Below are positions 7,141 to 29,746 of a DNA stretch of 64,000 nt, one piece after another. Made by a program: the position numbers and the translations under genes. The notes beneath the pieces are model-generated. The model was not told the DNA's origin, ran no database searches, and was given only the letters and a program-made list of their open reading frames with translations. This DNA comes from Rhodococcus sp. HM1 (GTDB taxonomy: Bacteria; Actinomycetota; Actinomycetes; Mycobacteriales; Mycobacteriaceae). Each line of letters begins with the position of its first letter. Positions within the stretch are counted from its first letter, which is position 1. The DNA lies in the NCBI RefSeq assembly GCF_023218075.1, contig NZ_JALPTB010000003.1:1-64000 (forward strand), given 5' to 3'.

Positions 7141-9765
7141 TCAGACCGACAGCGGCGACCGTGTGGCCAGCAGGTGTCCGAACAGGCCACCGGCACGCAG
7201 CCACTCGTACTCCAGCGGAGTGTCGAGCCGGGCCAGTGCAGTGCCCTCCCACCGGATTTCGCCCGCGCGCGTCACCCGGACCGCGACGTCGCGGGACGTC
7301 CCGAGATCGTCCAGGCCGAGCACGGAGATCTCCTCGCTCCCGTCGAACTCCTCGGGGGCGGGACCGTCCCACTGGATCGGCAGGACACCCAGCGCGACCA
7401 GGTTGGTCCGGTGGATGCGTTCGAAGCTGCGGGCGAGAACGGCCCGAACGCCGAGCAGCCGTGTCACCTTGGCGGCCCAGTCGCGGGCGGATCCGGCGCC
7501 GTAGAGCTCTCCCGCGACCACGACGACGGGTGTGCCGTGCTCTCGGTGGTGTTCGGCGGCGACATGGACCGGCACCGGCGGCTGTTCCGGCGAGATCCGC
7601 GTCCAGCCGCCCTCCCGATCCGGTGCGAGGAAGTTGTGCAGGCGGGTGTTCGCGAAACCACCCCGGACCATCACGTCGTGGTTGAGCCGGCGAGAACTGA
7701 AGGTGCCCAGCGCCCGTTCGTCGACACCCCGTTCGACGAGCCAGCGTCCCGCCGCCGAATCGGGCAGGACCCGCGCGACGGGGGAGATGTGGTCGGTGGT
7801 CACGGCGTCCCCGAGCACGAGCAGCGGACGCGCGTGCAGGTCTCCGTGGATTGCGGGCACGGTCAGCTCGGTATCGGTGAACGGTGGCCGGCGGATGCTG
7901 CCGGTTTCTCCGTCCCACCGATAGTGCTCGCCGTGCGGGTACTCGAGCTGTTCCCAGCGGTCGGTCGTCAACGCCCGATCCGCACCGCGGCCGAGCGCGG
8001 CCGCTTCGTGCTCGGCGAGCAGCGCGTCGATCTCCTGCTCGTCGGGCCAGAGGTCGGCGAGGGTGACCGGCGAGCCGTCCTCGGCGTGACCGAGAGGCTC
8101 GGCCGACAGATCGACCCGCACGTTGCCGGCCAGGGCGTAGGCCACGACCAGCGCAGGGGAGGCGAGGTAGGCGTGGGTGACGTCCGGATGGATTCGGCCG
8201 GTGAAGTTCCGGTTGCCCGACAGCACGGCGGTGTCCGGGGTCGTATCCGAACCGGCCGGGGCAGGAGGCAGCGGACCGGAGTTACCCATGCAGGTGCCAC
8301 AACCGAATCCGGTGACGTGGAAACCGAGCCGGTCGAGGTGTGCCTGAAGGCCACTGGATTCCAGGAGGTCGGCCGCCGCTCGCGATCCGGGGGTCAGCGA
8401 TGTCTTGGTCCACGGCGCCGCAGCGAGACCGGCCTCGACGGCGTTGCGCGCGAGCAGACCCGCCGTCACCAGGGCGCGGGGGTTGGACGTGTTGGTGCAA
8501 CTGGTGATCGCGGCGATGGCGACATCGCCGCTGCGCGACCTGGACGCGCCGTCGTCGCTGTGCGACCCGGACTCGCCGCGCGAGGCGGGAACCTCGGACA
8601 GCGACAGGGCTTCGTGCGGTCGCGACGGACCGGCCAGTGTCGTCGTGATGCTGCTCAGGTCGATCCGCAGTGTCGTCTCGAAACGGGGGACCGGGCTGGA
8701 TGCGGTGTGCAGCAGACCCTGGGCGGTCAGGTACTGCTCGGCCAGACGGACCTGCTCGGGCGAGCGACCGGTGGTTGACAGGTAGTCGAGAGTGCGGCGA
8801 TCCGCGGGGAACCACGCCATCGTGGCGCCGTATTCGGGCGCCATGTTGGCGACCGTGGCGCGGTCGGGCACCGACAGCGAACCCAGTCCGTCGCCGTGGA
8901 ATTCGACGATCGCCCCGACCACGTTCACGGCGCGCAGACGTTCCGCCAGGGTCAGTGCCAGGTCGGAGGCGAGGACACCCGGCGCGAGACGGCCGGTGAG
9001 TTCGACGCCGACGACGCGCGGTACCCGGATCATGAGGGCCTGCCCGAGCGCTGCGGCGGTGGCCTCGATGCCGCCGACGCCCCACCCGGTGACACCGAGC
9101 GCATTGATCATCGTGGTGTGCGAGTCGGTGCCGACCAGCGCATCCAGGGCCGCCACGCGCAGGCCGTCGGATTCGGTGGTGGTGACCACCGGCGCCAGGA
9201 CCTCGAGATTCAGCTGGTGACAGATGCCGACCCCGGGCGGAACGACGCGGAGCCCGGGGATGCGCTCCTGGGCCCAGCGCAGGAACCGGTAGCGGTCGTG
9301 GTGACGCATGTACTCGAGGTCGATGTTCCGGCCCGCCGCGGAGGCGTGCCCGTGCTCGTCGACCTCCAGCGCGTGGTCCACGACGAGATCGAGAGGCAAC
9401 GACGGCCGGAAGGCGGACGCGTCGATGCCGTCGCTCTCGGCCCGCTCGAGCAGGGTAACGATGTCCGCCAGCACCGGAATGCCGGAGGCGTCCTGGAACA
9501 GGACACGTCCGGGGAAGAACGGCACAGCGGCGGTCTCGTCCCGGCGGGTGAGGGCGAGAACGTGCTCGGGCAGCGCCTCGGGATGTCCCTGATTGCGCAG
9601 AACCCCTTCGACGAGCGTCTTCAGCGACCAGGGGAGCTCGCCGATGGGTCCGGCGCCGTTGGCCTCGGCGGCGGCGAGGCTGTAGTAGTGCAGCGGGGAA
9701 CCGGCCGGGTCGTCGAGCGGCAACGCCGTCAACGACCGGAAGGGATCGGTGTCGGAGATGCTCAT
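7141..9765 (-). CDS. Aconitase-family hydratase in the IclR/citryl-CoA-lyase operon
   Basis: An 874-residue AcnA-like protein. Isomerises citrate and isocitrate via cis-aconitate, or a related tricarboxylate. The three [4Fe-4S] cysteines are in SCTNTSNP and GFGCGTCMGNSGP. Other hallmarks are VGTDSHTTMINALGV, SGNRNFTGRIHP, LGDAVTTDHISP and GAGSARDWAAK in the swivel domain. An unusual polar Ser/Arg/Gly insertion (SGSHSDDGASRSRSGD) precedes the first cysteine. It overlaps the upstream lyase gene by four bases (ATGA) and ends the operon iclR - CoA-transferase - lyase - aconitase. The placement argues for a pathway-specific enzyme and not necessarily the housekeeping aconitase; whether another acn exists cannot be seen here. 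Confidence 0.85.
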   Translation of the reverse strand: MSISDTDPFRSLTALPLDDPAGSPLHYYSLAAAEANGAGPIGELPWSLKTLVEGVLRNQGHPEALPEHVLALTRRDETAAVPFFPGRVLFQDASGIPVLADIVTLLERAESDGIDASAFRPSLPLDLVVDHALEVDEHGHASAAGRNIDLEYMRHHDRYRFLRWAQERIPGLRVVPPGVGICHQLNLEVLAPVVTTTESDGLRVAALDALVGTDSHTTMINALGVTGWGVGGIEATAAALGQALMIRVPRVVGVELTGRLAPGVLASDLALTLAERLRAVNVVGAIVEFHGDGLGSLSVPDRATVANMAPEYGATMAWFPADRRTLDYLSTTGRSPEQVRLAEQYLTAQGLLHTASSPVPRFETTLRIDLSSITTTLAGPSRPHEALSLSEVPASRGESGSHSDDGASRSRSGDVAIAAITSCTNTSNPRALVTAGLLARNAVEAGLAAAPWTKTSLTPGSRAAADLLESSGLQAHLDRLGFHVTGFGCGTCMGNSGPLPPAPAGSDTTPDTAVLSGNRNFTGRIHPDVTHAYLASPALVVAYALAGNVRVDLSAEPLGHAEDGSPVTLADLWPDEQEIDALLAEHEAAALGRGADRALTTDRWEQLEYPHGEHYRWDGETGSIRRPPFTDTELTVPAIHGDLHARPLLVLGDAVTTDHISPVARVLPDSAAGRWLVERGVDERALGTFSSRRLNHDVMVRGGFANTRLHNFLAPDREGGWTRISPEQPPVPVHVAAEHHREHGTPVVVVAGELYGAGSARDWAAKVTRLLGVRAVLARSFERIHRTNLVALGVLPIQWDGPAPEEFDGSEEISVLGLDDLGTSRDVAVRVTRAGEIRWEGTALARLDTPLEYEWLRAGGLFGHLLATRSPLSV

Positions 9766-10676
9766 CGGCCGTTCTCATCCTCCGCTTCGGCTCCCCAGGC
9801 ACGCTCGGGGTGCCCGACGTAGGTCGGGAGCAGCGGCGGCGGCATCGGGCCCTTGATGCGGCGACCGCTCTGCGACTCCTCCCAGCTGTGGGCGAGAACG
9901 CCGACCGACCGGGACAGGATGAACAGGCCGCGGGCGAGTTCGGCGGTGAAGCCGAGCTCGGCGTAGATGACGGCCGTCGCACCGTCGATGTTCATCGGGA
10001 CCGGTCGGGCCCGGCCGGCGGAGAGCTGTGCCTCCAGTTCCAGCGCGGCCGCGAGGTAGCGACCGGACACGACTCCGGCGTCGACGGCCCCCTGGACGGC
10101 CTCGAGGAGCGGATCCCGGCGCGGGTCGCGGGTGTGGAATCGGTGACCGAAGCCGGGGACGTAGGCCCGGCGCTCGCGATAGGAGGCCACCTCGGCCGCC
10201 ACGGCCTCGCCGAGATCGCCGCCCTCGGCGGACGTGACCAGCCGCTGCAGGAATTCGACGCACTGCTGGCCGGCTCCGCCGTGGACGTCGCCGAGCAGCC
10301 CGACGCCGGTGGACATCGCGCCGTGCAGGCCGACACCGCACGTGGCGGCCATCCGGGCGGCCGCGATCGACGGTGCCTGCGGTCCGTGGTCGACAGCGGC
10401 GACGAGCGCCTTCTCGAGCAGCGCCGCCTCGGCGTGGGACGGCATCGAGCCGCGCACCATGGTCCAGATGGTCTCGACGAACGTGGCGTGACGGATGAGG
10501 TCCTGGATGGGATATCCGCGGAACCGGATCACGTCGGGTTCGATGTCCGAGACGGCGGTGCTCCACCAGTCGGCGGTCTTCTGCGAGTCCACCGCCGCGA
10601 GTGCTGCGGTGCGGGCGGCCGACGTGGCGACGTGCGTCTGCGAAACCTGTTCTGCTGCAATCGGTGTGGTGGTCAT
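9762..10676 (-). CDS. Citryl-CoA lyase-like protein (citrate synthase fold), catalytic residues intact
   Basis: A 304-residue homologue of the citrate synthase superfamily, shorter than true citrate synthases (about 370-430). This is typical of citryl-CoA lyases, which split citryl-CoA into acetyl-CoA and oxaloacetate. The three catalytic positions are present: His132 in GDVHGGAG, His178 in VPGFGHR, and Asp231 in MNIDGATA. It overlaps both neighbours by ATGA, so it is translationally coupled to a CaiB-type CoA-transferase and an aconitase. Together they could activate a citrate-like acid with CoA and cleave it without ATP. The substrate may be citrate or a homologue. Confidence 0.75.
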   Translation of the reverse strand: MTTTPIAAEQVSQTHVATSAARTAALAAVDSQKTADWWSTAVSDIEPDVIRFRGYPIQDLIRHATFVETIWTMVRGSMPSHAEAALLEKALVAAVDHGPQAPSIAAARMAATCGVGLHGAMSTGVGLLGDVHGGAGQQCVEFLQRLVTSAEGGDLGEAVAAEVASYRERRAYVPGFGHRFHTRDPRRDPLLEAVQGAVDAGVVSGRYLAAALELEAQLSAGRARPVPMNIDGATAVIYAELGFTAELARGLFILSRSVGVLAHSWEESQSGRRIKGPMPPPLLPTYVGHPERAWGAEAEDENGR

Positions 10677-11878
10677 ACGGCGCCCTCCTGGCGGAAGTTG
10701 TCGATCTGGTCGGCGGTGAATCCGATCTCGGCCAGGATCTCGTCCGTGTGCTCGCCCAGGATGGGCGGGCGGGTGGCGGGGCCGACGGCCCTGCCGTCGA
10801 CGTGAGTGGGCAGTCCGAGAACCTGGACGGTGCCGAGGTCTCCGACCGGCATCTCCACTTCGGTCACCAGCTGACGGTGCCGGATCTGTTCCGAGCGAAG
10901 CGATTCCGACACCGGGACCACCGGTGCCGCCGGGACGCCGGTGTCGAGGAGGATCTCGTCCCACTCGGCCGCGGACTTCTCCTTGAGCGAGATCTCGAGT
11001 TCGTCGCGCAGGATCTCGCGGTTGCGCTTGCGGTCCTCGCGGGTGACGAACCGCGGGTCGGTGACGAGTTCCTCGCGGCCGAGCACGCGGCACAGGATCT
11101 CGAACTGTTCCTGCTTGTTCGCCGCGATGTTGAGCACGCCGTCGGCGGTCTTGAAGGCGCCCGACGGGGCCGAGGTCATGTTCTCGTTGCCCATGGGGAT
11201 CGGTTCCTTGCCTGTGACAAGGTGATTGGAGACCACCCAGCCCATGGAGGTGAGCGCGGCGTCCAGCATGGACGTGTCGAGGTAGGCGCCCTGTCCGGTC
11301 GCGCGCTGCCGGACGATCGCGGCGCACACGGCCATCGCCGCGGCGAGTCCGCCGAAGCTGTCGCAGACGGGGTAACCGACCCGCAGCGGCGCCGACTGGG
11401 TGTCGCCGGTGACGCTCATGATTCCGGACATGCCCTGGACCACCTGGTCGTAGGCGGGGCGACCGCGCAGCGGGCCGGTGGCGCCGAACCCGGACACCGC
11501 GCAGTAGACCAGCCGGGGGTTGATCTCCTTCAGGCGGTCCCAGCCGAAGCCGAGGCGCTCGAGCACGCCCGGCCGGAAGTTCTCCAGCAGCACGTCCGCG
11601 TCGGCGAGCAGGCGTTCGAAGACCTCCTTGCCGCCGGCGGTCTTGAGGTTCACGGTGACCGAGCGCTTGCCCGAGTTCTGGGCGAGGAAGGAGACACCCA
11701 TGTATTCGGCGCTCAGCCCTGGGTCCGCGCCGAGCTGACGGGCCAGGTCGCCGCTGCCGGCGGTCTCGACCTTGACGACGTCGGCACCGAGGAGGGCGAG
11801 CTGGTAGCCGGCGAAGGGGCCGGCGAGGACATTGGTCATGTCGAGGACGCGCACGCCCTCGAGCAGGTTGGTGGTCAA
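10673..11878 (-). CDS. CaiB/BaiF family (class III) CoA-transferase
   Basis: Class III CoA-transferases move CoA between carboxylic acids through an aspartyl-anhydride on a conserved Asp. This 401-residue protein has the N-terminal EGVRVLDMTNVLAGPFAGYQLALLGADVVKVE signature region, FRPGVLERLGF, and the putative catalytic Asp144 in GRPAYDQVVQGMSG. The best-supported start is a TTG at 11878, overlapping the iclR stop (TTGA). The gene lies in a four-gene operon in which every junction overlaps. The likely acceptor is a di- or tricarboxylate handled by the downstream lyase. Confidence 0.8.
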   Translation of the reverse strand: MTTNLLEGVRVLDMTNVLAGPFAGYQLALLGADVVKVETAGSGDLARQLGADPGLSAEYMGVSFLAQNSGKRSVTVNLKTAGGKEVFERLLADADVLLENFRPGVLERLGFGWDRLKEINPRLVYCAVSGFGATGPLRGRPAYDQVVQGMSGIMSVTGDTQSAPLRVGYPVCDSFGGLAAAMAVCAAIVRQRATGQGAYLDTSMLDAALTSMGWVVSNHLVTGKEPIPMGNENMTSAPSGAFKTADGVLNIAANKQEQFEILCRVLGREELVTDPRFVTREDRKRNREILRDELEISLKEKSAAEWDEILLDTGVPAAPVVPVSESLRSEQIRHRQLVTEVEMPVGDLGTVQVLGLPTHVDGRAVGPATRPPILGEHTDEILAEIGFTADQIDNFRQEGAV

Positions 11879-12648
11879 AGGAAAGCCTCCACGGTTCCGA
11901 GCCCGACAGCACTGATCTGCCGGGCGGTGTCAGTTACGGCGTCGACGTACCGGGCGGCCCGGTCGGCGGTGAAGCGCGACGTGGGGCCGCTGATCGAGAG
12001 CGCGGCGAGGACACGGCCGTCGGCGGAGAGAATCGGGGCGGCGACCGCCGAGGCGCCCAGTTCCCGCTCTCCGTGGGTGATCGCGCAGCCGGCTTCGAGG
12101 TCCCCGGCCGCTCTGCTGCGAAGGTCCGCTGCGCTCACGCCGCTCTGCTCGGCCAGCGCGGCGAGGATCGTGTCCGGGCAGGCGGCGAGCAGTACCCGGC
12201 CCGCGGCCCCGCTCGTGAGGGGGTACCGCGCCCCGACCTGGACCACGCTGCGGACCGTGGTCGTTCCCTCGATCTGCGCGATCGACAGGCGGTGCAGGTC
12301 CTGGCGGATGTAGATGTTCACCGTCTCGCCGCACCTGTCGCGCAGGGCCGTCATCAACTGCCGGGCCTCGGGACCGATCTCCCACATCGCCTCGGCCAGC
12401 TTCACCCAGCGCAGGAACGAGGGCCCCACGCTGTAGCTCGTCGATTCGCCGGGGCTGGCGATGATGCCCTGCGACGTGAGCGTGCCCAGCAGCCGCACCA
12501 CCGTGGACTTGGGCAGTCCACTGATGTCGACGAGTTCGCGCAGGGTCCGGACCGGATGTTCGGCGTCGAACCCGTTGAGCAGATCGAAGGCGCGGGCCAC
12601 GCTGCGGACCCCGCCGTCGGCTACTGCGGCCGCTGTTGCCTGTGTCAT
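11875..12648 (-). CDS. IclR-family transcriptional regulator
   Basis: A 257-residue IclR protein with an N-terminal winged helix (about residues 15-75: SVARAFDLLNGF, TLRELVDISGLPKSTVVRLLGTL) and a C-terminal effector-binding domain (about 90-250). It is the first gene of its operon and is divergent from the MHS transporter. Matching inverted and direct copies of AACCA(C/T)CT-like sequence lie in the shared promoter (12664-12796), so it probably controls both directions and senses the transported acid or a CoA derivative. Confidence 0.85.
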   Translation of the reverse strand: MTQATAAAVADGGVRSVARAFDLLNGFDAEHPVRTLRELVDISGLPKSTVVRLLGTLTSQGIIASPGESTSYSVGPSFLRWVKLAEAMWEIGPEARQLMTALRDRCGETVNIYIRQDLHRLSIAQIEGTTTVRSVVQVGARYPLTSGAAGRVLLAACPDTILAALAEQSGVSAADLRSRAAGDLEAGCAITHGERELGASAVAAPILSADGRVLAALSISGPTSRFTADRAARYVDAVTDTARQISAVGLGTVEAFL

Positions 12649-12663
12649 GACGCCACCCTAGGT

Positions 12664-12796
12664 CCGCTAGGTGGTTTCTGCAAACCATCTGATGGACGAA
12701 CATCGTCTTGACTTGTCAACAACAGCATGGTTTCATGCGTGACGCAGACCACAGGACTGCTCTGCGGTTCCGATCAACCACCTAGTGGTCGAACAT
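12664..12796. promoter_or_regulatory. Putative IclR operators in the iclR/MHS divergent promoter
   Basis: Three related 13-mers occur: CCGCTAGGTGGTT (12664-12676), AACCATCTGATGG (12683-12695) and AACCACCTAGTGG (12776-12788). The first is the near reverse complement of the others, so the first two form an inverted repeat, GGTGGTT-tctgc-AAACCATC. The second and third are each followed by a CGAACAT copy, making two direct 20-21-bp units. Placement between iclR and the transporter, the last unit reaching the transporter's ribosome site, fits autoregulation and control of transport. The binding protein is inferred. Confidence 0.55.
12706..12721 (+). promoter_or_regulatory. Copy of the island-wide 16-bp palindrome (putative MarR operator)
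   Basis: TCTTGACTTGTCAACA. The same 16-mer is found in reverse complement at 22519-22534, and it matches the T(G/C)(T/A)TG-N6-CAA(C/G)A consensus seen in the other promoters of the island. It lies between two IclR-like repeats and contains TTGACT, which could serve as a -35 element of the transporter promoter. Confidence 0.5.
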
Positions 12797-12806
12797 GAGG
12801 AGGAAA

Positions 12807-14171
12807 ATGACCACCAGCGGCGAGCTCATCGAAGAAGGTGTGAACAACAACGGCGTGAAAACGGAGGGGGGTGCGAAGACCACAGCGAACCCCGCCATGG
12901 CGCGCCGAGCCGCGCTCGCCGGAGGCGTCGGTACCGTCATCGAGTACTACGACTTCAGCGTCTACGGCTTTCTGGCGCTGACCCTGGCGCCGCTGTTCTT
13001 CCCCGAGCAGGACCCGGCCACCGCAACCCTCTCGGCGCTGGCCGTGTTCGCGTCCTCGTACCTGGTCCGCCCCGTCGGCGGCTGGTTCTTCGGCATCCTC
13101 GGCGACCGTCGTGGCCGGCGCTTCGCGCTCGTCTCGACGGTGCTGCTCATGTCCGCCGCGTGCCTCGTAATGGGCCTGCTGCCCACCCACGCCAACATCG
13201 GCATCGCGGCAACCGTCGCGATCGTGATCGTCCGCCTGGTCCAGGGCTTCGCGGCGGGTGGTGAGGTCGGCGGTGCCGCGACCTACATCGCCGAACTCGC
13301 GCCTCCCGGGCGCCGCGGCTTCTTCGGAAGTTCCACGGCCATGGGTGCGACCTTCGGTTTCGCGGTGGCCGCGGCCGTCGTCGGTGCCGTCCGGCTGGGC
13401 CTGAGCGCCGAGCAGATGCAGTCCTGGGGATGGCGAATCCCGTTCCTGGTCTCCGTGATCTTCGCCGCCGTCGCCCTGTGGGGACGTCTCCGGCTCGAGG
13501 ACAGCCCGCAGTTCAAGGAACTCGAGGAGCGTCTCGACGGACCGGCCGTGGAGAAGCGACCGCTGGCGACCGTGATCCGCAACCACCCGCTGTCGGTGCT
13601 CCGCGTGTTCGGCATGTCGGTCGCGCTCAACGGCACCGTGTACATCGGCCTGACCTACTTCGGAATCTTCTTGCAGCGCAAGGGACATCTCTCGCCGACG
13701 GCGATCGCGTGGATCGCCGCCGCGGGTATCGCGATCGCGACCGTCACCTTCCCGCTGCCCGGTCTGCTCTCCGACCGGTTCGACCGTAAGCCGGTTCTGA
13801 TCGTCGGCTACGTCGCCCTCGCTCTCCTGGCCTGGCCGGCGTTCTCGATCCTGTCCACCACGAGCAGCGTGCTCCTGGCCATCGCGGTCTACGTCGTCTA
13901 CATGTTCTTCAACGGGTTCGTCCAGGTACCCACCTACGCCCTCGCGGCGGAGTTGTTCCCCACCAACGTGCGGTACACCGGGATCGCGCTGGGCTACAAC
14001 CTGGGTACCATCACCGCCGGCGGCACCGCGCCCCTGATCGCGGAACTCTTGGTGCAGCGCACCGGCCAGGACACGAGTCCGGCAGGATGGGTCATCCTGG
14101 TCGCCGTGGTCGGTCTGATCAGCGTCGCCACCGTGGGGCGGACCGCGTCCAAGTCCCTGCCCCAGCACTGA
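12807..14171 (+). CDS. MHS-family MFS transporter (metabolite:H+ symporter)
   Basis: A 454-residue, 12-segment major facilitator of the metabolite:proton symporter group (ProP, ShiA, KgtP, CitA relatives), which import organic acids and related compounds. The family features are visible: GTVIEYYDFSVYGFLA in segment 1, GGWFFGILGDRRGRR in the 2-3 loop, and RLVQGFAAGGEVGGAATYIAE in segment 4. The chosen ATG at 12807 follows GAGGAGGAAA; an ATG at 12795 lies within that ribosome site. The gene is divergent from the iclR operon and is followed by the PrpD-like gene eight bases on. The context suggests uptake of a di- or tricarboxylate. Confidence 0.85.
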   Translation: MTTSGELIEEGVNNNGVKTEGGAKTTANPAMARRAALAGGVGTVIEYYDFSVYGFLALTLAPLFFPEQDPATATLSALAVFASSYLVRPVGGWFFGILGDRRGRRFALVSTVLLMSAACLVMGLLPTHANIGIAATVAIVIVRLVQGFAAGGEVGGAATYIAELAPPGRRGFFGSSTAMGATFGFAVAAAVVGAVRLGLSAEQMQSWGWRIPFLVSVIFAAVALWGRLRLEDSPQFKELEERLDGPAVEKRPLATVIRNHPLSVLRVFGMSVALNGTVYIGLTYFGIFLQRKGHLSPTAIAWIAAAGIAIATVTFPLPGLLSDRFDRKPVLIVGYVALALLAWPAFSILSTTSSVLLAIAVYVVYMFFNGFVQVPTYALAAELFPTNVRYTGIALGYNLGTITAGGTAPLIAELLVQRTGQDTSPAGWVILVAVVGLISVATVGRTASKSLPQH

Positions 14172-14179
14172 GGAGTTTC

Positions 14180-15613
14180 ATGAGTATCGACACCGCAACG
14201 CGCACAACGCCGGAACCGCTCGAGGAACAGCCGGCGTCGCCGGAACAGCTGATGGCCCGCTTCGTCGCCGACACCGTGGTCGCCGACATCCCCTCCGATG
14301 TGCTCGCCGTCGCCCATCAGGTTCTGCGCACGGTGTGCGGCACGGCGATCGCCGGGGCCGGGCAGGATGGGATCGCGGAGCTGCGGAAGATGGTCGTCGT
14401 CCAGGGCGGTCGAGGCGAGGCACGCTCGCTCGTCCACGGAGACCCCCTTCCGGCGCAGAGCGCCGCGCTGCTCAACGGCACCATGGCGCGCGCTCTCGAC
14501 TACTGCGACACGATGGTCCCGGGACTGCACCTCGGCTCGTCGGTCGTGCCGGCGGCTCTGGCCGCTGCCGAGCTTCGCGGTGGGTGCACCGGCTCGGAGT
14601 TCCTGGCGGCCCTGGCCGTCGGGCTCGAGGCGGGCATCCGGTTCAACCTCACCGAGGAGCAGTACGCCGGCCTCGACCCGACCGGAGTTGCGGGCCTCCT
14701 CGGAGCCACCGCCGCCGCGGCACGGGCCGCCGGCCTCGACGCCGAGCAGACCCTGAACGCGCTGGCACTTTCGTTCAACCGCTGTGCAGCGAGCTTCCAG
14801 AGCAACGTCGACGCGTCGCTCGCGGTGCGGTTGATCCAGGGCTGGACCGCGGCCTCGGCCGTGCAGAGCGTCCAGTTCGCCCAGGCCGGACTCACCGGGC
14901 CCGCGAACTACATTTCGGGACCGTTCGGGTACGCGCGGCTGTATGCGCGCGGTGAACGCACTCCGGAGTCGTTCGTCGAGGAGATCGGCAGCCGCTACGG
15001 GCTGGGAGACATCTTCTTCAAGAAGTACCCGAGCTGCGGCCTGACCCAGGGCGTCACCGAATCCGCGCTTCTCGCACTGGAATCCGTCGGCAAGAAGAAC
15101 ATCGAACGGGTCGACATCCACCTGCCCGAGTTCGCCCACAATCTCATCGGCAAGCCGTTCGAGCCGGGCACCAACCCCCGGGTCAACGCGCAGTTCAGCG
15201 CCCAGTACACCTGCGCGAACGCCCTCGAACGAGGTGCCTCGCTGCTCGAGCACTTCGAACCCGAGCGGGTCGCCGAGCTGGACGGATCGGACATGCTCGC
15301 GCGGATTCGGGTGCATTTCGACCCGGAGCTGACCGGGCACTCGTCGTCGCGGGTCGAGGTGCACACCACCACCGGCGGCACGTGGGTGCGGACCCTCGAG
15401 GTCGGCCCGGGCTACCCCGGCAACCCGCTGACGCCGGAGGAACAGGCCCAGGGGTTCGGTGACTGCGTCGGCTATGCGCCCTGGGGCCTGCCGGCCGACC
15501 AGGTGCGCGACCTCGAGTGGATGACGTCCGATCTCACGACGGTGGAGGACGTCCGGAGCGTCGTCACGGCGTTGATCAGTCCGGACGCGACGCCCCTGCC
15601 CGAGTCGCCGTAA
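14180..15613 (+). CDS. MmgE/PrpD family protein
   Basis: A 477-residue member of the MmgE/PrpD superfamily, which includes 2-methylcitrate dehydratase, cis-aconitate decarboxylase and an iminodisuccinate epimerase. Family features are FVADTVVADIPSDVLAVAHQVLRTVCGTAIAGAGQDG, LNGTMARALDYCDTMVPGLHLGSSVVPAALA and KKYPSCGLTQG. The start follows GAGGAG. With an aconitase and a citryl-CoA-lyase homologue divergently encoded, dehydration or hydration of a citrate-like acid is the natural guess. The exact reaction cannot be read from sequence. Confidence 0.8.
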   Translation: MSIDTATRTTPEPLEEQPASPEQLMARFVADTVVADIPSDVLAVAHQVLRTVCGTAIAGAGQDGIAELRKMVVVQGGRGEARSLVHGDPLPAQSAALLNGTMARALDYCDTMVPGLHLGSSVVPAALAAAELRGGCTGSEFLAALAVGLEAGIRFNLTEEQYAGLDPTGVAGLLGATAAAARAAGLDAEQTLNALALSFNRCAASFQSNVDASLAVRLIQGWTAASAVQSVQFAQAGLTGPANYISGPFGYARLYARGERTPESFVEEIGSRYGLGDIFFKKYPSCGLTQGVTESALLALESVGKKNIERVDIHLPEFAHNLIGKPFEPGTNPRVNAQFSAQYTCANALERGASLLEHFEPERVAELDGSDMLARIRVHFDPELTGHSSSRVEVHTTTGGTWVRTLEVGPGYPGNPLTPEEQAQGFGDCVGYAPWGLPADQVRDLEWMTSDLTTVEDVRSVVTALISPDATPLPESP

Positions 15614-22676: not shown

Positions 22677-24020
22677 ATGGGAGCGAATCGGACTCCTGAA
22701 CTCGCCGACGCTTTCGCGTCGGCGGGTCACGCTGCGCCGGCAGGCATGGACCGGGAGCGTCGCCGCGTCGCACTTGCGACGCTCGTCGGCACCACGGTCG
22801 AGTGGTACGACTTTCTCGTCTACGCGCAGATCGCCGCCCTGGTCTTCGGTGATCTGTTCTTCAGCGGCCTCGGTCAGTGGAGCCAGCTCACCGCTCTGGC
22901 GACCACCGGCGTGAGCTTCATCTTCCGGCCGCTCGGGGCGATCGCCAGCGGCTACCTCGGCGACCGCTTCGGCCGGCGGATCGTGCTCGTGCTCACCCTC
23001 GGTCTGATGGGTGTGTCGACCACCCTCGTCGGTCTGCTGCCGACGGCCGCGTCGATCGGAATCGCGGCGCCGATCCTGCTCATCGCGCTGCGCTGCCTGC
23101 AGGGGCTCTCCGCGGGCGGCGAGTGGGGTGGCGCGGCGATGCTCGCCGTCGAACACGCGGAGCCCGGTCGCCGCGGCCGCATGGGTTCCTTCCCGCAGAT
23201 GGGCATGCCGCTCGGCATGATGCTGGCGATCATCGTGATGGCCGTCTTCAACAACCTGCTGGGCAAGGAGGCGTTCGACTCCTGGGGTTGGCGCCTGCCG
23301 TTCCTGCTCTCGGTGGTGCTGGTCCTCGTGGGTCACTTCGTGCGGTCCAGGGTTGCCGAGTCGCCCGTCTTCGCGGAGCTCGAGGAGTCGCACGCGACGG
23401 CGAAGACCCCGCTGCGTGAGCTCTTCGGCACTCATTCCGGCAAGGTGCTTCACGCAGCCGGCACGCTCCTGGGCAACATCACCGCCGGCTACATGATCGT
23501 CGGTGGCTTCGCCCTCGCGTACTCGACCAAGACGCACGGCCTGTCGCGCAATCACGTGTTGATGTGGCTCGTCGCGGCCAGTGCCGTGTGGATCGCCTGC
23601 ACCTACCTCGGCGCGTGGTGGAGCGACCGTTCCGGTCGTCCGATCGTCTACCGGGTCGGCTACGCGCTGCTGTTCGTGATGCTCCTGCCGCAGTTCTGGC
23701 TCCTCAGCTCGGGCACGCTGCTGGGCACCGGGATCGCGGTGGTGACCCTGGCGGTGCCGCTGGGCCTGACCTACGGCCCGCAGTCGGCGCTCTTCGCAGA
23801 GATGTTCCCGGCGAAGATCCGGCTCTCCGGGGTGTCACTGTCGTACGCGCTCGGTGCCGTGCTCGGTGGCGCCTTCGCCCCCACGATCGCCGAAGCGCTG
23901 ACCAAGAGCTTCGGCTCGGTCATGGCGGTCGCTCCGTACCTGATGGGCATGGCTGCGATCAGCCTGGTCGCCGCCTTCCTCATCCGTGATCGCTCCGGGG
24001 AGCCACTGGACGCACGCTGA
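22677..24020 (+). CDS. MHS-family MFS transporter, probable aromatic or organic acid importer
   Basis: A 447-residue metabolite:H+ symporter with 12 predicted membrane segments: VGTTVEWYDFLVYAQIAALVF in segment 1, GYLGDRFGRRIVLV in the 2-3 loop, and RCLQGLSAGGEWGGAAMLAVE in segment 4. It is divergent from the P450 operon and upstream of the CoA-transferase operon, with operators on both sides, so it probably brings in the pathway substrate. The ATG at 22677 follows GAGAGG with a six-base spacer. A terminator follows. Confidence 0.85.
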   Translation: MGANRTPELADAFASAGHAAPAGMDRERRRVALATLVGTTVEWYDFLVYAQIAALVFGDLFFSGLGQWSQLTALATTGVSFIFRPLGAIASGYLGDRFGRRIVLVLTLGLMGVSTTLVGLLPTAASIGIAAPILLIALRCLQGLSAGGEWGGAAMLAVEHAEPGRRGRMGSFPQMGMPLGMMLAIIVMAVFNNLLGKEAFDSWGWRLPFLLSVVLVLVGHFVRSRVAESPVFAELEESHATAKTPLRELFGTHSGKVLHAAGTLLGNITAGYMIVGGFALAYSTKTHGLSRNHVLMWLVAASAVWIACTYLGAWWSDRSGRPIVYRVGYALLFVMLLPQFWLLSSGTLLGTGIAVVTLAVPLGLTYGPQSALFAEMFPAKIRLSGVSLSYALGAVLGGAFAPTIAEALTKSFGSVMAVAPYLMGMAAISLVAAFLIRDRSGEPLDAR

Positions 24021-24042
24021 GGCGGGCCATCCGCCGAGCAAT

Positions 24043-24093: not shown

Positions 24094-24154
24094 CGGTAGG
24101 GCCGTGCTGTTTTCGGGCGGGTGTGGCTCCGAACCGGATCTGCCGAAAATGTGG

Positions 24155-24205: not shown

Positions 24206-24264
24206 ACTTGTGACGGGGTCGCGCAACACGTCGGCGCCCGGGCCGCAAGTCGTAGGAGGAAGCT

Positions 24265-25452
24265 GTGGAGATTCAGCAGAGCAAGGAAGCGGGAAGTCCG
24301 CTCGGAATGCTTCCGGGACTGAAAGTCGTGGAGATGGGCCAGAACCTGGCCGCTCCGTACGCTTCGTTGATCCTCGGTGATCTGGGCGCCGACGTCGTCA
24401 AGGTCGAGAAGCCCGGCGGCGACGACGCTCGCGGTTGGGGCCCGCCGTTCGTGGGGGACAGCTCCGTGAGCTTCCACATGATGAACCGCAACAAGAAGTC
24501 CGTGGTTCTCGCCCTCGACGACGAGAACGACTACAAGGCGTTCCTCGATCTCATCCGCGACGCCGACGTCTTCGTCCACAACCTCCGCCCCGGCGTCGAC
24601 AAGAAGCTCGAGGCCGACGCCGAGACGCTCATGGCCGTGAACCCGCGGTTGATCTACTGCGCGATGTCGGCCTTCGGTCACACCGGCCCGATGGCGGACC
24701 GCCCCGGCTACGAGCCCCTCCTGCAGGCATTTTCGGGCATGGTCGCGATCAACGGTGACCCGAGCGGGCCGCCCTCGCGGGTCGGTCCCTCGGTGGTCGA
24801 CCTCGGCACCGGCATGTGGTCGGTCATCGGTGTGCTCTCCGCGCTCCTGCAGCGTCAGGTCACCGGACTGGGCAGCGAGGTCAAGACCTCCCTGCTGGAG
24901 ACCGCCGTCAACTGGGCGGGACGTCACATCGCCGATTACGGTGCCACCGGCAAGATTCCGCCGCGTGTGGGCACCGGCCACAACTCGCTCACGCCCTACG
25001 GTGCGTTCGAGGCGTCGGACGGCCCGTTCATCATCGCAGCCGGCAACGACCGCCTGTTCGCCAAACTGGCGGGGGCGCTGGGCCATCCGGAGTGGCCGGC
25101 CGATCCTCGCTTCACGACCAACGCGGCCCGTACGGAGAACCGCCCCACGCTCCTGCCGCTGATCTCCGAGATCGTCGCCGGTGCCACCGTCGCGGAGTGG
25201 ATCGAACGCCTCGAGGCGGCGGGAGTGCCCTGCGCACCGATCAATTCGATCCCGCAGGTCCTCGAGCACCCGCAGACCGCGGCGATGCAGATGATCCTCG
25301 ACACCGACGACGAGCGGCTCAAGCTCACCGGGCTGCCGCTGAGCATCAACGGCGCCCGGGCGGGTTTCGGCACCAAGGCCCCGGCGCTCGACGCGCACCA
25401 CGACGAACTGGTCGACGGCGCAGCCGCGACGAACACGGGAGAAGTCAAGTGA
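24265..25452 (+). CDS. CaiB/BaiF family CoA-transferase, second copy
   Basis: A 395-residue class III CoA-transferase. It has LKVVEMGQNLAAPYASLILGDLGADVVKVEKPGGDDAR at the N-terminus, VFVHNLRPGVDKKL, and YCAMSAFGHTGPMADRPGYEPLLQAFSGMV. At the position of the family's catalytic Asp it has Glu150 (PGYEPLLQA), seen in a subset of the family. The GTG start follows TAGGAGGA. It is the first gene of an operon overlapping the lyase homologue by GTGA. Only distantly similar to the copy at 10673-11878. Confidence 0.8.
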   Translation: MEIQQSKEAGSPLGMLPGLKVVEMGQNLAAPYASLILGDLGADVVKVEKPGGDDARGWGPPFVGDSSVSFHMMNRNKKSVVLALDDENDYKAFLDLIRDADVFVHNLRPGVDKKLEADAETLMAVNPRLIYCAMSAFGHTGPMADRPGYEPLLQAFSGMVAINGDPSGPPSRVGPSVVDLGTGMWSVIGVLSALLQRQVTGLGSEVKTSLLETAVNWAGRHIADYGATGKIPPRVGTGHNSLTPYGAFEASDGPFIIAAGNDRLFAKLAGALGHPEWPADPRFTTNAARTENRPTLLPLISEIVAGATVAEWIERLEAAGVPCAPINSIPQVLEHPQTAAMQMILDTDDERLKLTGLPLSINGARAGFGTKAPALDAHHDELVDGAAATNTGEVK

Positions 25453-26222
25453 GCCAAGTAGTTACGCACATCGCAACCTCCGACGAGAAGTCGGTCACCG
25501 TCCGCGGCAAGGACCTGTGCGACGAGATCATCGGTGAGCGCACCTTCACCGAGATGATCTACTTCCTGTCCGTCGGACGGATGCCCTCCACCGCCGAGGC
25601 GCGGGTCCTCGACGCCTGCCTGGTCACCCTGATGGAACACGGCTGGGTCCCGACCTCGATCGTCACCCGCCTGGTCGCGGACAGCGTCCCCGACGACGTG
25701 CAGGTCGCGATGGCCGCCGGTCTGCTCTCCGTCGGCCCGGTCTTCGCCGGCACCATGGAAGGCTGCGCGGAGATCCTCGCCGAGGGCATCCGCAGCGGTG
25801 AGGACCCGGACGTGTACTGCAAACGGGTCGCCGAGGAGTACGTCGGCGCCAAGCGGCCGGTCCCGGGATTCGGGCACCGCCTGCACAAGCCGGACGATCC
25901 CCGCTCGATCAAGCTGCTGCGTGTCGCGGAGGAGAACGGGCTCGAGGGCCGTTACGTCGATCTGCTCCTGACGCTGAGCCGCGAGGTCGACGCCGCCCGC
26001 GGTGGCCGGCACCTGACCATCAACGCCACCGGCATGATCGCTGCGCTGTTCCTGGAGATCGGGATTCCGCTGAAGGCGGGCCGCGGCATGGCCGTGGTCT
26101 CGCGCGCCGGCGGTCTGCTCGGTCACGTGGTCGAGGAGTTCAACGAGCCCTCCGCGCGCAAGATCTGGCAGCTCACCCGGGAAGGCATCCCGTATTCGGC
26201 ACCCGAGGAGACGCAGGCATGA
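25449..26222 (+). CDS. Citryl-CoA lyase-like protein (citrate synthase fold), two catalytic residues replaced
   Basis: A 257-residue short citrate-synthase homologue. His143 in VPGFGHRLH is conserved, but the first catalytic His position is Phe99 (VGPVFAGTMEGC where the other copy has VHGGAG), and the catalytic Asp position is Asn192 (LTINATG for MNIDGAT). It therefore probably does not use the standard citrate-synthase chemistry, and may cleave or make a different beta-hydroxyacyl-CoA. Start GTG and end ATGA overlap both neighbours, so it is made in step with a CoA-transferase and an acyl-CoA ligase. Confidence 0.7.
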   Translation: MSQVVTHIATSDEKSVTVRGKDLCDEIIGERTFTEMIYFLSVGRMPSTAEARVLDACLVTLMEHGWVPTSIVTRLVADSVPDDVQVAMAAGLLSVGPVFAGTMEGCAEILAEGIRSGEDPDVYCKRVAEEYVGAKRPVPGFGHRLHKPDDPRSIKLLRVAEENGLEGRYVDLLLTLSREVDAARGGRHLTINATGMIAALFLEIGIPLKAGRGMAVVSRAGGLLGHVVEEFNEPSARKIWQLTREGIPYSAPEETQA

Positions 26223-27811
26223 CCGCCGCGTCGACCGATCGGTACTCCTCGGCCGACGTGCTGGCGCTCTACCGCGAGCACGACGGCACCCTGGCCGATC
26301 TCGTCCGCAGTCGCGCCGAGACCGATTCCGGGCGCGAGATGCTCGTGTGCGGTGAACGGTCCCTGTCCTGGGCGCGGGCCCTCGACGCGGCCGGCCGCCT
26401 GGCTGCCTACCTGCACGGGCGCGGCGTCGTGGCCGGCGACCGGGTGCTGGTGATGGGCCGCAACAGCGACTGGCACGTGCTCGCGTTGCTCGCCGCCGCG
26501 GGACTCGGTGCCGTGTTCGTCCCCGTCAACCCGGATTTCAAGGTGGAGGAGGCGGCCTACGTCCTGCGCCAGTCCGGTGCCCGGGCCGTTCTCTGCGACG
26601 AGGTCGCCGCGGCGACCGCCGAGGCGGCGCGCGCCGAGGTCGACGAGGACGTCTGGATCGAACTGCTCGGCGAGCACCTGCTCACCGCCGAGCCGATGGC
26701 GCTCGGCGGCGACCCGAAGGCACCGTGCGTGATGATCTACACCTCCGGCACCACCGGTTTCCCCAAGGGCGTCCTGCACTCCCAGCAGAGCGTGATCGCC
26801 GCGGGGGAGAGCTTCGTGGAGCGGGTGCAGTTGCAGCCGCACGACCGGGTCCTGACGATCCTTCCGCTCTTCCACGTCAACGGACTGCTCTACTCGGTGG
26901 CGGGTGCGCTCGCCGCGGGCGCGACGCTGCTGGTGGAGCCGAAGTTCTCGGCGTCGAACTTCTGGACGACGGTGACGCGCCTGCGCGCGACGCAGGTCAA
27001 CATGATCGAGGCGATCAGCGCGATCCTGCTCAACCGTCCCGAGAGCGAGTATCTGCCCGAGCACGGACTGCGCAAGATCTACGGGATCCGGCAGGCGAGC
27101 ATGCAGGCCTTCCGTGACCGGTTCGGGGTGCCGCACCTGGTGGGCGGCTACGGCATGACGGAGATCCCCGGCATCCTCAGCACCCCCTACGCCGGCGAGA
27201 CCCCGAAGGGCAGCATGGGCCGGTTGTGCCGGCATCCCGATCCCGCGCGGCCGTGGGCACAGTGCCGGATCGTCGACGACAGCGGCGCCGACGTCCCCGA
27301 CGGAACGATCGGCGAACTGTGGGTGAACACGCCCATCGTGATGCTCGGCTACTTCCGCGAACCCGAGCAGACCGCCGATTCCTTCGACGGCGACTGGTTC
27401 AAGACCGGCGACCTCGTCCGCCGTGACGAGGACGGATGGTTCTACTTCGTCGCCCGCAAGAAGGACATCATCCGCCGGCGCGGGGAGAACATCTCCGGTG
27501 CCGAACTCGACCGGGTCGTTGCCGAGCATCCGGAGATCGTGCTCGCCGCGGCGGTCGGCGTGCCCTCCGAAATGGGCGACGACGACATCCTGCTCGTGGT
27601 GACCAGGCGAACGGATTCGCAACTGACAGAACAGGAAGTCGCCGACTTCTGCAGCACACGACTGGCCCGGATCAAGCGACCGCGCTACGTCGTGTTCACC
27701 GACGACATGCCTCTCACACCCACCGGAAAGGTCGCGAAACACCGGTTGCGAGCGGACGTCACGCTCCGCGACCGCGCCTGCGAAGTCGACCTCGTAACCG
27801 CCGAACAGTAA
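26219..27811 (+). CDS. AMP-forming acyl-CoA ligase (acyl-adenylate family)
   Basis: A 530-residue adenylate-forming enzyme that activates a carboxylic acid with ATP and CoA. The motifs are in order: MIYTSGTTGFPKGVLHS (P-loop, near residue 175), GGYGMTEIPG (A5-like), NGL-type substrate region, DWFKTGDLVRRDEDGWFYFVARKKDIIRRRGENIS, and the C-terminal Lys in TPTGKVAKHRL. Closest in layout to crotonobetaine/carnitine and hydroxycinnamate-type CoA ligases. The substrate is unknown; the setting points to the aromatic acid or its ring-cleavage product. Confidence 0.85.
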   Translation: MTAASTDRYSSADVLALYREHDGTLADLVRSRAETDSGREMLVCGERSLSWARALDAAGRLAAYLHGRGVVAGDRVLVMGRNSDWHVLALLAAAGLGAVFVPVNPDFKVEEAAYVLRQSGARAVLCDEVAAATAEAARAEVDEDVWIELLGEHLLTAEPMALGGDPKAPCVMIYTSGTTGFPKGVLHSQQSVIAAGESFVERVQLQPHDRVLTILPLFHVNGLLYSVAGALAAGATLLVEPKFSASNFWTTVTRLRATQVNMIEAISAILLNRPESEYLPEHGLRKIYGIRQASMQAFRDRFGVPHLVGGYGMTEIPGILSTPYAGETPKGSMGRLCRHPDPARPWAQCRIVDDSGADVPDGTIGELWVNTPIVMLGYFREPEQTADSFDGDWFKTGDLVRRDEDGWFYFVARKKDIIRRRGENISGAELDRVVAEHPEIVLAAAVGVPSEMGDDDILLVVTRRTDSQLTEQEVADFCSTRLARIKRPRYVVFTDDMPLTPTGKVAKHRLRADVTLRDRACEVDLVTAEQ

Positions 27812-27896
27812 AGCCCACACCGTCGTCGGTGACGACGCGCAGCCACCCATCGGACCGGTCGGCGTGATCGACGGTGGCCACAGAAAGGACCGAGCT

Positions 27897-29171
27897 ATGA
27901 CCGAGACCCTCGCACCCCGCACCACATCCTCCGTCTGGGACGACCCGATCGGCCGGATCCACGAATTCCTGGTCGGCGACTTCACGTCCTCGCCGTTGGT
28001 GCAACGCGCCCGCGACCTCGTTCCCACGCTGAAGGAGCGCGCGGCACGCCAGGCGCAGCAGGACCGCATCCTGCCCGAGACGATCGAGGACATGCAGCGG
28101 GCAGGGTTCTTCCAGATGCTGCAGCCGCGTTCCCACGGCGGATACGAACTGTCACCGATCGAATCGTTCGAGGTGACTTCGATTCTCGCGGAGGGTGATC
28201 CGTCCGTCGGCTGGGTCCTGGGCGTGATCGGCATCCACCATTTCCACCTCGGTTTCTTCGACGAGCGTGCCCAGGCGGACGTCTGGTCGACGGACCACAC
28301 CACGCTGGTCAGTTCGCCGTACGCACCGCAGACCGCGAAGCGAGTGGACGGCGGTTACCTCCTGTCCGGCCGGTGGTCGTTCTCGTCGGGCAGCGACTAC
28401 TGCGAATGGGCGCTGCTCGGTGCGAACGTCGAAGGTGAGCCGACCCCCGGTCCCGGACCGCTCGGCAGCCACGTGCTGCTGCTCCCGCGCACGGACTACG
28501 AGATCGTCCACAACTGGGACGTCTCGGGCCTGCGCGCTACGGGTAGCAACGACATCGTGGTCGAGAACGCCTTCGTCCCCGACCACCGCAGCCTGACCTG
28601 GAACGAGGTGCACGACGGAACGGCACCGGGGCTCGCGCTCAACGACGGGCTGCTGTTCAAGCTCCCGTTCTTCCAGGTCTTCTCCCGCGCCACCCAGGCT
28701 CCCACCGCGCTCGGCGCACTGAAGGGCATGGCCGACGCCCTGGCCGACTTCATCCGGAGCAAGGGACGCAAGGGTGTCGATCCTGCTGCTGCCCTCGCAC
28801 TCGCCGAGGCGTACTCGTTCATCTCGGAGGCGAAGGGACGGCTGTACGCGAACTACGGTGCGGTGATCGCCGAAGCGACCGGCGGTGCCGCGGTTTCGCC
28901 CGAGCGGCTCGAGGAGTTCCGGTTCCAGTCGGCGTACATCCCCGCGCGCGCCGCCCGGTACGGCACCGAGCTGTACCGCGTCGCGGGTGGCACCGGTATC
29001 TACAACACCCGGCCGTTCGGGCGGTACCTCACGGACCTGATGGCCACGCAGACCCACGCCATCAACAACTTCCAGGCCCGGGCGATGGACTGGATGGGTC
29101 CGCAGCTCGACATCACGGGTTCGTTCGTCTCGAAGCCGGACGGCGTGGTGCCGAACGCGATTCGGCGCTGA
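27897..29171 (+). CDS. Group D flavin-dependent monooxygenase / acyl-CoA dehydrogenase-like protein
   Basis: A 424-residue acyl-CoA-dehydrogenase-fold protein. Segments such as GGYLLSGRWSFSSGSDYCEWALLGANVEG and WDVSGLRATGSNDIVVENAFVPDHR resemble the oxygenase component of two-component monooxygenases (HsaA, HpaB C2 type, DszC), which hydroxylate phenols using reduced flavin from a separate reductase. No acyl-CoA dehydrogenase catalytic Glu context is evident by eye. The ATG at 27897 follows AGAAAGGA. The gene is last in the CoA-transferase operon; the fused flavin reductase at 15824-16981 is the likely partner. Confidence 0.75.
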   Translation: MTETLAPRTTSSVWDDPIGRIHEFLVGDFTSSPLVQRARDLVPTLKERAARQAQQDRILPETIEDMQRAGFFQMLQPRSHGGYELSPIESFEVTSILAEGDPSVGWVLGVIGIHHFHLGFFDERAQADVWSTDHTTLVSSPYAPQTAKRVDGGYLLSGRWSFSSGSDYCEWALLGANVEGEPTPGPGPLGSHVLLLPRTDYEIVHNWDVSGLRATGSNDIVVENAFVPDHRSLTWNEVHDGTAPGLALNDGLLFKLPFFQVFSRATQAPTALGALKGMADALADFIRSKGRKGVDPAAALALAEAYSFISEAKGRLYANYGAVIAEATGGAAVSPERLEEFRFQSAYIPARAARYGTELYRVAGGTGIYNTRPFGRYLTDLMATQTHAINNFQARAMDWMGPQLDITGSFVSKPDGVVPNAIRR

Positions 29172-29189
29172 GCCGCCGGCGAACACTGC

Positions 29190-29230
29190 TCGGCCCGGGT
29201 ACCGATACGGTGCCCGGGCCGATCTGCTTT
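29190..29230. terminator. Hairpin terminator between the monooxygenase and convergent marR
   Basis: TCGGCCCGGGTACC pairs with GGTGCCCGGGCCGA (29190-29203 with 29209-29222, one wobble), followed by TCTGCTTTT on the plus strand. It probably ends the CoA-transferase operon and may act for marR as well. Confidence 0.7.
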
Positions 29231-29242
29231 TCGGCGGTCCGT

Positions 29243-29746
29243 CTATTCGCTCAGCCCGTCCAGGTTCTCGCGGAAGCGCCGCAGCATTTCGTTGAACTTC
29301 TTGATCTCCCGCGGTGTGAAGCCCGACAGCACCTGCTTCTGGCGAGCGAGCACATCCTCGAGCATGCGGTCGTGGAGCTCGTATCCCTCCGGCGTCAGAT
29401 GCCACAGGCGGCTCCGCGGATTCGTGCCGTTCGCTATCGCCTCGGCCAGGCCGAGCTTCTCGAGCTTGCTCAACGCGCGGCTCACGGCACCCTTGTCGTA
29501 GCCGACCGCGGGGCTGGCCGCGGTCACCGGGACATCCGGTTCCTTGCACAGCATCACCAGCATTCGCCATTCCATCGCGCTGATGCCGAATTTGTTCTGG
29601 TAGTGCCGGGAGGCGCTCCGGTTGAAACTGTTGGCGGCCCACACCAGAAGGACCGTCGGATTGTTGTCGAGATTGAGCGACTTCGAGCCGGAGCCGTCGC
29701 TGCGCTCGACGTCCTCGACAAAGAATTCATCGAGCGCGTCGGCCAT
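29243..29746 (-). CDS. MarR-family transcriptional regulator, probable master repressor of the island
   Basis: A 167-residue MarR protein with a central winged helix (about residues 65-125: ISAMEWRMLVMLCKEPDVPV, VGYDKGAVSRALSKLEKLGLAEA, NPRSRLWHLTPEGYELHD) and terminal helices for dimerisation. MarR proteins usually repress catabolic genes until an aromatic acid or CoA ester binds. Its own promoter carries a copy of the 16-bp palindrome that is also found upstream of the P450 operon, both transporters and the CoA-transferase operon, so it is the best candidate for the shared regulator. Confidence 0.85.
   Translation of the reverse strand: MADALDEFFVEDVERSDGSGSKSLNLDNNPTVLLVWAANSFNRSASRHYQNKFGISAMEWRMLVMLCKEPDVPVTAASPAVGYDKGAVSRALSKLEKLGLAEAIANGTNPRSRLWHLTPEGYELHDRMLEDVLARQKQVLSGFTPREIKKFNEMLRRFRENLDGLSE

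Follow-up and report, generated by a model that had tools for sequence, protein, structure and literature searches.

Does a gene block in which ring-attacking oxygenases lie beside enzymes of citrate-like acids encode one catabolic pathway or two? The question is raised by positions 7,141 to 29,746 of a 64,000-nucleotide stretch of Rhodococcus sp. HM1 (contig NZ_JALPTB010000003.1, positions 1 to 64,000; the whole stretch is referred to as the window), a block of ~22 kb on contig C181 of the 6.93 Mb genome (G000) of this high-GC bacterium. A preliminary description had proposed an undescribed aromatic pathway ending in cleavage of the citryl-CoA-lyase type. Genes were defined by a codon-usage gene call together with Pfam and NCBIfam scans of the translations. 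The enzymes named earlier (aconitase, two CaiB/BaiF CoA-transferases, two short citrate-synthase homologues, an MmgE/PrpD protein, a P450 chain, an HsaA/HsaB-type pair and a PcaH/PcaG-like dioxygenase) were all found, each as an open reading frame with high GC at third codon positions and a strong family match. From the gene ends the block was divided into three units, A, B and C. On balance, it appears to comprise two adjacent catabolic units that are inherited together, A for citrate-type acids and B with C for an aromatic acid.

CS1 and CS2, the two citrate-synthase homologues, were aligned with the citrate synthase of G000 itself and with the solved citryl-CoA lyase 6hxp. They were compared at H229, H264, H305, R314, D362 and R387, residue numbers and roles being those we assume for the E. 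coli citrate synthase. CS1 (9762..10676, minus strand, unit A) scores 406 bits with NF004864 (cut-off 261) and keeps the equivalents of all six residues, a complete catalytic set. The same six are kept in 13/13 CS1-type sequences, that of the window included; the set had 14 rows, and one L188 row (Phe, Thr) was excluded because its place in the locus marks it as the CS2-type gene. CS1 is thus like citryl-CoA lyase (6hxp; NF004864) in family, in length and in every residue compared, and differs from it in having a CaiB partner and in lying in a catabolic operon with an aconitase. CS2 (25449..26222, plus strand, unit C) shares the family models of that lyase but not its His/Asp pair. It passes NF004868 (292 bits, cut-off 193), fails NF004867 (272 bits, cut-off 409) and carries Phe in place of H264 and Thr in place of D362. 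Among 44 CS2-type sequences, which include those of the window and of the related genome G068, His is never found at the H264 position, which holds Phe (40 sequences), Leu (2) or Tyr (2); the D362 position holds Ala (25), Thr (18) or, in L120 alone, Asp. H305 and R314 are kept in 44/44, and H229 and R387 in 43/44 each. The residues retained argue for an active protein that would bind a carboxylated CoA ester, and the loss of His and Asp argues against an acetyl-CoA enolate being formed in the usual way. No description of the missing residues was found in the titles and abstract openings of the literature searched.

The neighbours of CS2 relatives agree with work on CoA esters. An order-level search matched 108/397 genomes and gave 29 loci besides that of the window, 28 of which have an adjoining CoA-activating gene (CaiB in 25, a ligase in 3, none in one). 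On plasmids, where 100 records matched, a ligase or CoA-transferase was annotated or matched in 12 of the 14 loci opened; those of Rhodococcus DMU1 and Sulfitobacter dubius had none. Members of this protein type with a neighbouring CoA ligase or CoA-transferase gene were seen in proteobacteria, actinobacteria and one haloarchaeon. On plasmid pBB2 of Cupriavidus necator N-1 (L189 5466-14480), a CS2-type gene and a ligase lie by a maleylacetate reductase and an intradiol dioxygenase; this locus is a second aromatic setting for CS2.

The complete homologue, CS1, belongs to unit A. On the minus strand this unit reads IclR, CaiB1, CS1, acn with a 4-base overlap at each junction: an IclR-type regulator (11875..12648; PF01614, PF09339) is first in the operon, followed by CaiB1, a family III CoA-transferase (10673..11878; PF02515, 398 bits), CS1, and acn, an aconitase of 874 aa (7141..9765; PF00330/PF00694). 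MFS1 (12795..14171; TIGR00883) and the MmgE/PrpD family protein (14180..15613; PF03972, PF19305) lie on the plus strand. MFS1 is a predicted metabolite:H+ symporter with ProP and TcuC as relatives, none of its scores reaching the cut-off (TIGR00883 380 bits, ProP 295, TcuC 253). The acn product scores above the cut-offs of NF009520 AcnA (987 bits, cut-off 905) and NF006757 (981, cut-off 686), below that of TIGR01341 AcnA (912, cut-off 945) and far below that of homoaconitase TIGR00139 (87, cut-off 530). By these models the predicted aconitase is AcnA-like and not a homoaconitase. Enzymes of the 2-methylcitrate cycle were not recognised, as MmgE/PrpD scores 31 bits with the PrpD equivalog (cut-off 950) and acn 674 with AcnD (cut-off 1420).

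Relatives of CS1 at 1e-60 were found in 8/301 genomes of the family, G000 included. Unit A occurs in G214, of the same genus (IclR 61%, CaiB1 75%, CS1 71% and acn 59% identity), with an adjoining MFS gene and dehydrogenase, and in Rhodococcus koreensis (64, 74, 71 and 57%, respectively). In the 20 and 25 kb read around it in these two genomes, no match to the dioxygenase, the ligase, CS2 or HsaA was seen. The dehydrogenases beside unit A in both have TcuA as their best model (354-360 bits, cut-off 369). TcuA is again the best model for the dehydrogenase of Agrobacterium larrymoorei, the scores over all three genomes being 350-360 bits. IclR, CaiB1 and CS1 occur together without acn in the family genomes G021, G064, G230 and G023. 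In Ruegeria a CS1 relative comes after tripartite tricarboxylate transporter genes and a CoA-transferase, and in Azospirillum one lies with an aldehyde dehydrogenase, a CoA-transferase and an FAD oxidoreductase. Near unit A of R. koreensis are a P450, a ferredoxin and a reductase 36-46% identical to those of unit B; with their EthD-like and AraC-type neighbours these have, by eye, the look of what we take to be an ether-degradation cluster. Unit A is thus separable, being found where the dioxygenase, ligase, CS2 and HsaA genes are not. Tricarballylate utilisation (TcuA, TcuC) is the nearest known system in that a TcuA-like gene lies by the unit A relatives and MFS1 reaches 253 bits with TcuC (cut-off 445), whereas the window has MmgE/PrpD in place of TcuA and, in addition, CoA activation and a lyase. 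CS2, the homologue within the aromatic operon, is without the His/Asp pair, and CS1, which has the full set, lies in a separable, overlapping module with IclR, CaiB1 and an AcnA-like aconitase. Joining ring cleavage to citryl-CoA-type cleavage is therefore unsupported, and that part of the preliminary description was not borne out.

Between the divergent units B and C lie 294 intergenic bases. The minus-strand unit B comprises, in order, cytochrome P450 (21072..22382; PF00067), 2Fe-2S ferredoxin (20768..21079; PF00111), ferredoxin reductase (19530..20771; PF07992, PF14759), PcaH-like beta subunit (18748..19533; TIGR02422, aligned with 2pcd_M), PcaG-like alpha subunit (18236..18751; TIGR02423, 1eo2_A), enoyl-CoA hydratase/isomerase (17447..18220; PF00378, 165 bits), 4HBT thioesterase (16978..17439; PF13279) and HsaB-like flavin reductase (15824..16981; PF01613). 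Unit C, on the plus strand, runs MFS2 (22677..24020; TIGR00883), the family III CoA-transferase CaiB2 (24265..25452; PF02515, 397 bits), CS2, an AMP-forming acyl/aryl-CoA ligase (26219..27811; PF00501, 242 bits) and the oxygenase component of an HsaA-type group D flavin monooxygenase (27897..29171; NF045629). MFS2, whose start codon was picked for likeness to the G068 copy, is a predicted metabolite:H+ symporter akin to the shikimate transporter; it scores 362 bits with TIGR00883 and 296 with the shikimate transporter model, each under cut-off.

The dioxygenase consists of two subunits, of which the alpha is ~30 residues shorter than a normal PcaG. Both score under their equivalog cut-offs (PcaH-like with TIGR02422, 243 bits against 296; PcaG-like with TIGR02423, 99 against 126). 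From the numbering and roles that we assume, the iron ligands are Tyr408, Tyr447, His460 and His462, and the protocatechuate pocket is formed by Trp449, Tyr324, Ile491, Tyr/Phe16 of alpha and Arg133 of alpha. The PcaH-like subunit retains Y408, Y447, H460 and H462 along with R457, Q477 and W400, and the PcaG-like subunit keeps T12, G14, P15 and R133, the Arg of the FTRG motif. The protocatechuate pocket is not conserved: 449 has become Phe and is accompanied by a two-residue insertion, Ser stands at 324, Met at 491 and Leu at alpha 16, Arg133 alone being kept. Across 118 other rows, position 449 holds Trp 110 times, Asn 3 times, Ala once and Phe 4 times, and each of these Phe rows is a copy of the gene of the window or of G068. 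Tyr occupies position 324 in 65 of the 70 rows that extend to it, and alpha 16 is Phe or Tyr in 103/108; Met at 491 is less telling, being found in 12/118 rows. The enzyme therefore shares with PcaHG its two subunits, iron ligands and substrate Arg, and differs in its scores, altered pocket, short alpha subunit and absence of adjoining pcaB, pcaC and pcaD. The likeliest reading of these residues is that it would act on a new substrate, probably still carboxylated. A similarly short alpha subunit was seen in an unrelated cluster of Amycolatopsis pithecellobii (L044 7491-15866). The PcaHG relative there has Ala at 449 and Ser at alpha 133, and adjoins genes that by eye are 2-oxoacid-dehydrogenase-like and aldolase-like.

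The steroid-phenol hydroxylase HsaAB and component C2 of the HPA 3-hydroxylase are the best curated relatives of the oxygenase and the flavin reductase, and the best solved relatives of the oxygenase (2rfq, 3afe, 2jbr). Unlike HsaAB, both components score under the equivalog cut-offs (oxygenase NF045629 283 bits, cut-off 450; reductase NF045630 161 bits, cut-off 230) and no extradiol dioxygenase was recognised in the cluster. The monooxygenase and flavin reductase reported earlier as a pair are both present; they are not adjacent, however, but belong to two divergently transcribed operons and are separated by ~11 kb. The C-terminal extension of the reductase (~225 residues, window 15824-16500) has no Pfam or NCBIfam match, and the G068 copy is 171 aa in total. 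B and C are taken as one unit of function because of the shared 294-base divergent region and because the oxygenase would need a reductase like that of B. The best solved relatives of the P450 are 5xjn and 5gwe, both of which we take to be CreJ of Corynebacterium glutamicum. No CreH, CreI or CreD-type gene was recognised in the block. The arrangement of P450, ferredoxin and ferredoxin reductase in unit B is that of CreJ/CreE/CreF in alkylphenol oxidation (PMC9549646).

Can the dioxygenase product reach the beta-ketoadipate pathway by other genes? The absence of pcaB, C, D, I, J and F, which the preliminary description had noted, holds for the genes annotated in the block but not for the genome. 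PobA, PcaH, PcaG, PcaB and PcaL (PcaDC) lie together on contig C195, with PcaB slightly under its cut-off (348 bits against 356); PcaIJ and PcaF were not searched for in the rest of the genome. A catechol-dioxygenase-type gene on contig C76 has neighbours that by eye resemble catB and catC. The earlier scheme was said to fall if the product went to beta-ketoadipate through enzymes encoded elsewhere, and of this the existence of such enzymes, on C195, is what was found.

Inheritance of the block was followed within the genus. Units A, B and C in the same site and order were found in 1/17 other genomes (G068), and 16/18 genomes of the genus have no PcaH relative at 1e-70. The flanking genes icd and trpS were placed in 18/18 and are on one contig in 16/18. 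In these 16 genomes their spacing was obtained by subtraction of positions. G000 and G068 both have ~26 kb between the two genes, G205 has 13 kb, G135 and G166 each have 7.1 kb, and the remaining 11 have 0.9-3.1 kb. The site was opened in six genomes besides G000 and G068. G135 and G166 have IclR-CaiB1-acn only (L249 2464-7075; L250 2258-6875), G205 has remnants of acn (54 aa) and IclR (51 aa), and G027, G156 and G123 have no match to the genes of A, B or C. In G135 and G166 no match to CS1 at 1e-60, no PcaH relative at 1e-70 and no HsaA relative at 1e-85 was found. When G000 is compared with G068, 10 cluster genes show a synonymous divergence of 0.34-0.70, and the flanking genes trpS, BrkB, sdhA, metX and folD one of 0.40-0.74. 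The ratio of nonsynonymous to synonymous divergence (dN/dS) for the same 10 genes is 0.11-0.24. As the cluster has diverged like its flanks and the dN/dS is low, the block is old and selected; a recent horizontal island was rejected on the matching synonymous divergence. Conservation of gene order in G068 together with this dN/dS places the cluster beyond chance. The simplest history is ancestral presence followed by loss of pieces, with gain as the alternative. Between G135 and G166 the dN/dS is ~0.10 for IclR, ~0.03 for CaiB1 and ~0.10 for acn; the CoA-transferase and aconitase of these two genomes must have a role without CS1. In G068 a transposase gene lies between MarR and the oxygenase operon (L115 10261-11499).

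The families, arrangement and overlap of the genes within the units, their residues and their inheritance are direct observations and, with the hairpin after the oxygenase, the grounds for the preferred reading. It assigns the following steps, of which every substrate, reaction and position in the order is predicted from sequence. In unit A, MFS1 would import a citrate-type acid, MmgE/PrpD and the AcnA-type aconitase would interconvert its dehydrated and hydrated forms, CaiB1 would form the CoA ester, and CS1 would split the ester into acetyl-CoA and a 2-oxo acid, which for citrate would be oxaloacetate. Units B and C would form a single aromatic-acid pathway, with MFS2 for uptake of the acid and the P450 chain for oxidation of a side group. 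A phenol would be ortho-hydroxylated to a catechol by the HsaA-type oxygenase and the flavin reductase, and the PcaH/G-like enzyme with its changed pocket would carry out intradiol cleavage of the catechol to a substituted muconate. The ligase, CaiB2, hydratase and thioesterase would act on CoA esters of the aromatic acid or of the ring-cleavage product, and CS2 on an undefined CoA-ester step other than canonical Claisen cleavage. More tentatively, and with rather less than even confidence, B and C may be an undescribed aromatic-acid pathway in which CS2, having no enolisation His/Asp, catalyses a new CoA-ester reaction, so that the citryl-CoA-lyase annotation would be wrong for a large group of proteins. 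If true, a protein type often annotated as citryl-CoA lyase does other chemistry and reconstructions of citrate cleavage need correction; the aromatic unit is a new route whose dioxygenase has a novel specificity, and unit A is a portable means of using citrate-like acids by CoA activation.

Several observations weigh against this division into two units. In both G214 and R. koreensis, the MFS gene adjoining unit A resembles MFS2 (42-43%) more closely than MFS1. In G135 and G166 CS1 is missing along with B and C, as are MFS1 and MmgE at the site, and CaiB1 and acn are under selection without CS1, which the reading of unit A does not predict. The order A, B, C is kept in G068 and absent from the rest of the genus, so A may be retained because of B and C. 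The tie between B and C is itself circumstantial, as other flavin reductases of the genome were not searched for, and many of the 44 CS2-type sequences and of the 29 order-level loci come from close relatives, their counts not being independent events. Finally, CS1 relatives lie with shikimate/quinate genes in Azoarcus KH32C (L154 4819-12333) and G207 (L211 3947-10598), the neighbours being a shikimate dehydrogenase, a dehydroquinate dehydratase, a TIM-barrel protein and an acetolactate-synthase-like thiamine-diphosphate enzyme. These clusters, from distantly related genomes, might represent a hitherto unrecognised quinate/shikimate route via a citrate-like acid.

The last of these points also favours a single pathway, in which the dioxygenase would give a carboxylated muconate, aconitase or MmgE would hydrate it to a citrate- or homocitrate-like acid, CaiB1 would form the ester, and CS1 would release acetyl-CoA and an unsaturated 2-oxo acid. 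In its favour, 3-carboxymuconate is the diene form of homoaconitate, and hydration of the diene would give a citrate-like tertiary alcohol. CS1 is catalytically complete, the dioxygenase keeps its alpha-subunit Arg, the block order is common to G000 and G068, and CS1 is gone where B and C are gone (G135, G166). We nevertheless hold this route to be unlikely, as unit A has its own transporter and regulator and is found without aromatic enzymes, by a TcuA-like dehydrogenase; the aconitase scores as AcnA and not as homoaconitase, pocket positions 449, 324 and alpha 16 are unlike those of most relatives, and IclR-CaiB1-acn is under selection without B, C or CS1. Of the pathway proposed earlier, then, what stands is a coherent and unusual aromatic unit; its continuation as one pathway to the lyase is unsupported. 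Slightly less likely still is that B and C only feed the beta-ketoadipate pathway, the dioxygenase yielding 3-carboxymuconate or a close analogue for PcaB and PcaL elsewhere. The kept iron ligands and substrate Arg and the gene set on C195 are in keeping with it, but a normal PcaHG is already in the genome, CaiB2, CS2, the hydratase and the thioesterase would be left without a role, and both the substitutions at 449, 324 and alpha 16 and the shortened alpha subunit speak against that product. A reaction of CS2 ahead of ring attack is highly improbable. Here CaiB2 or the ligase would activate an aryl-substituted malate-type acid (e.g. benzylmalate) and CS2 would free a C2 unit to leave an arylpyruvate. 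The operon does join CS2 to a transporter, a CoA-transferase and a ligase, and the equivalents of His305, Arg314 and Arg387, presumably binding the carboxylates of the hydroxy acid, are kept; the enolate His and Asp are missing, however, and no gene for use of arylpyruvate was recognised in the cluster.

Counterparts of the preferred aromatic unit, B with C, were sought outside the genus. No homologous cluster was found among the matches listed, which for PcaH were the best 80 of 590 confirmed loci, gene matches being viewed for the 60 of 114 loci with most matches. HsaA relatives at 1e-80 were limited to the window's own in 394 class genomes, and at 1e-85 were found in 2/301 family genomes, with few candidates scored per genome. 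Plasmids gave no PcaH match at 1e-50 and 27 records matching HsaA, of which two (H1, H4) were opened. H1, of Burkholderia arboris (L153), has relatives of HsaA (47%), the flavin reductase (26%) and the ligase (29%) and no match to the P450, dioxygenase, CaiB or CS genes; none of the B/C set was seen in H4 by annotation. Caballeronia NK8 resembles this set by annotation, and its ligase, CS2, thioesterase and hydratase do match, but it was rejected as an orthologous cluster because no HsaA or flavin reductase match was listed. No description of an aromatic pathway with CaiB and a citryl-CoA lyase was found in the titles and abstract openings searched, and within that literature the aromatic unit is probably undescribed.

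Unit C is followed by a terminator-like hairpin of 15 pairs (29190..29222, plus strand) and then by a convergent MarR-type regulator gene (29243..29746, minus strand; PF12802; G068 copy 78%), which probably controls units B and C. Terminator-like sites in the region number 11, against 5.7 expected from shuffles. A ribonuclease-family (PF00545) protein adjoins the block (window 30994-32469), and in G027 a barstar gene lies near trpS (L251 2074-2954).

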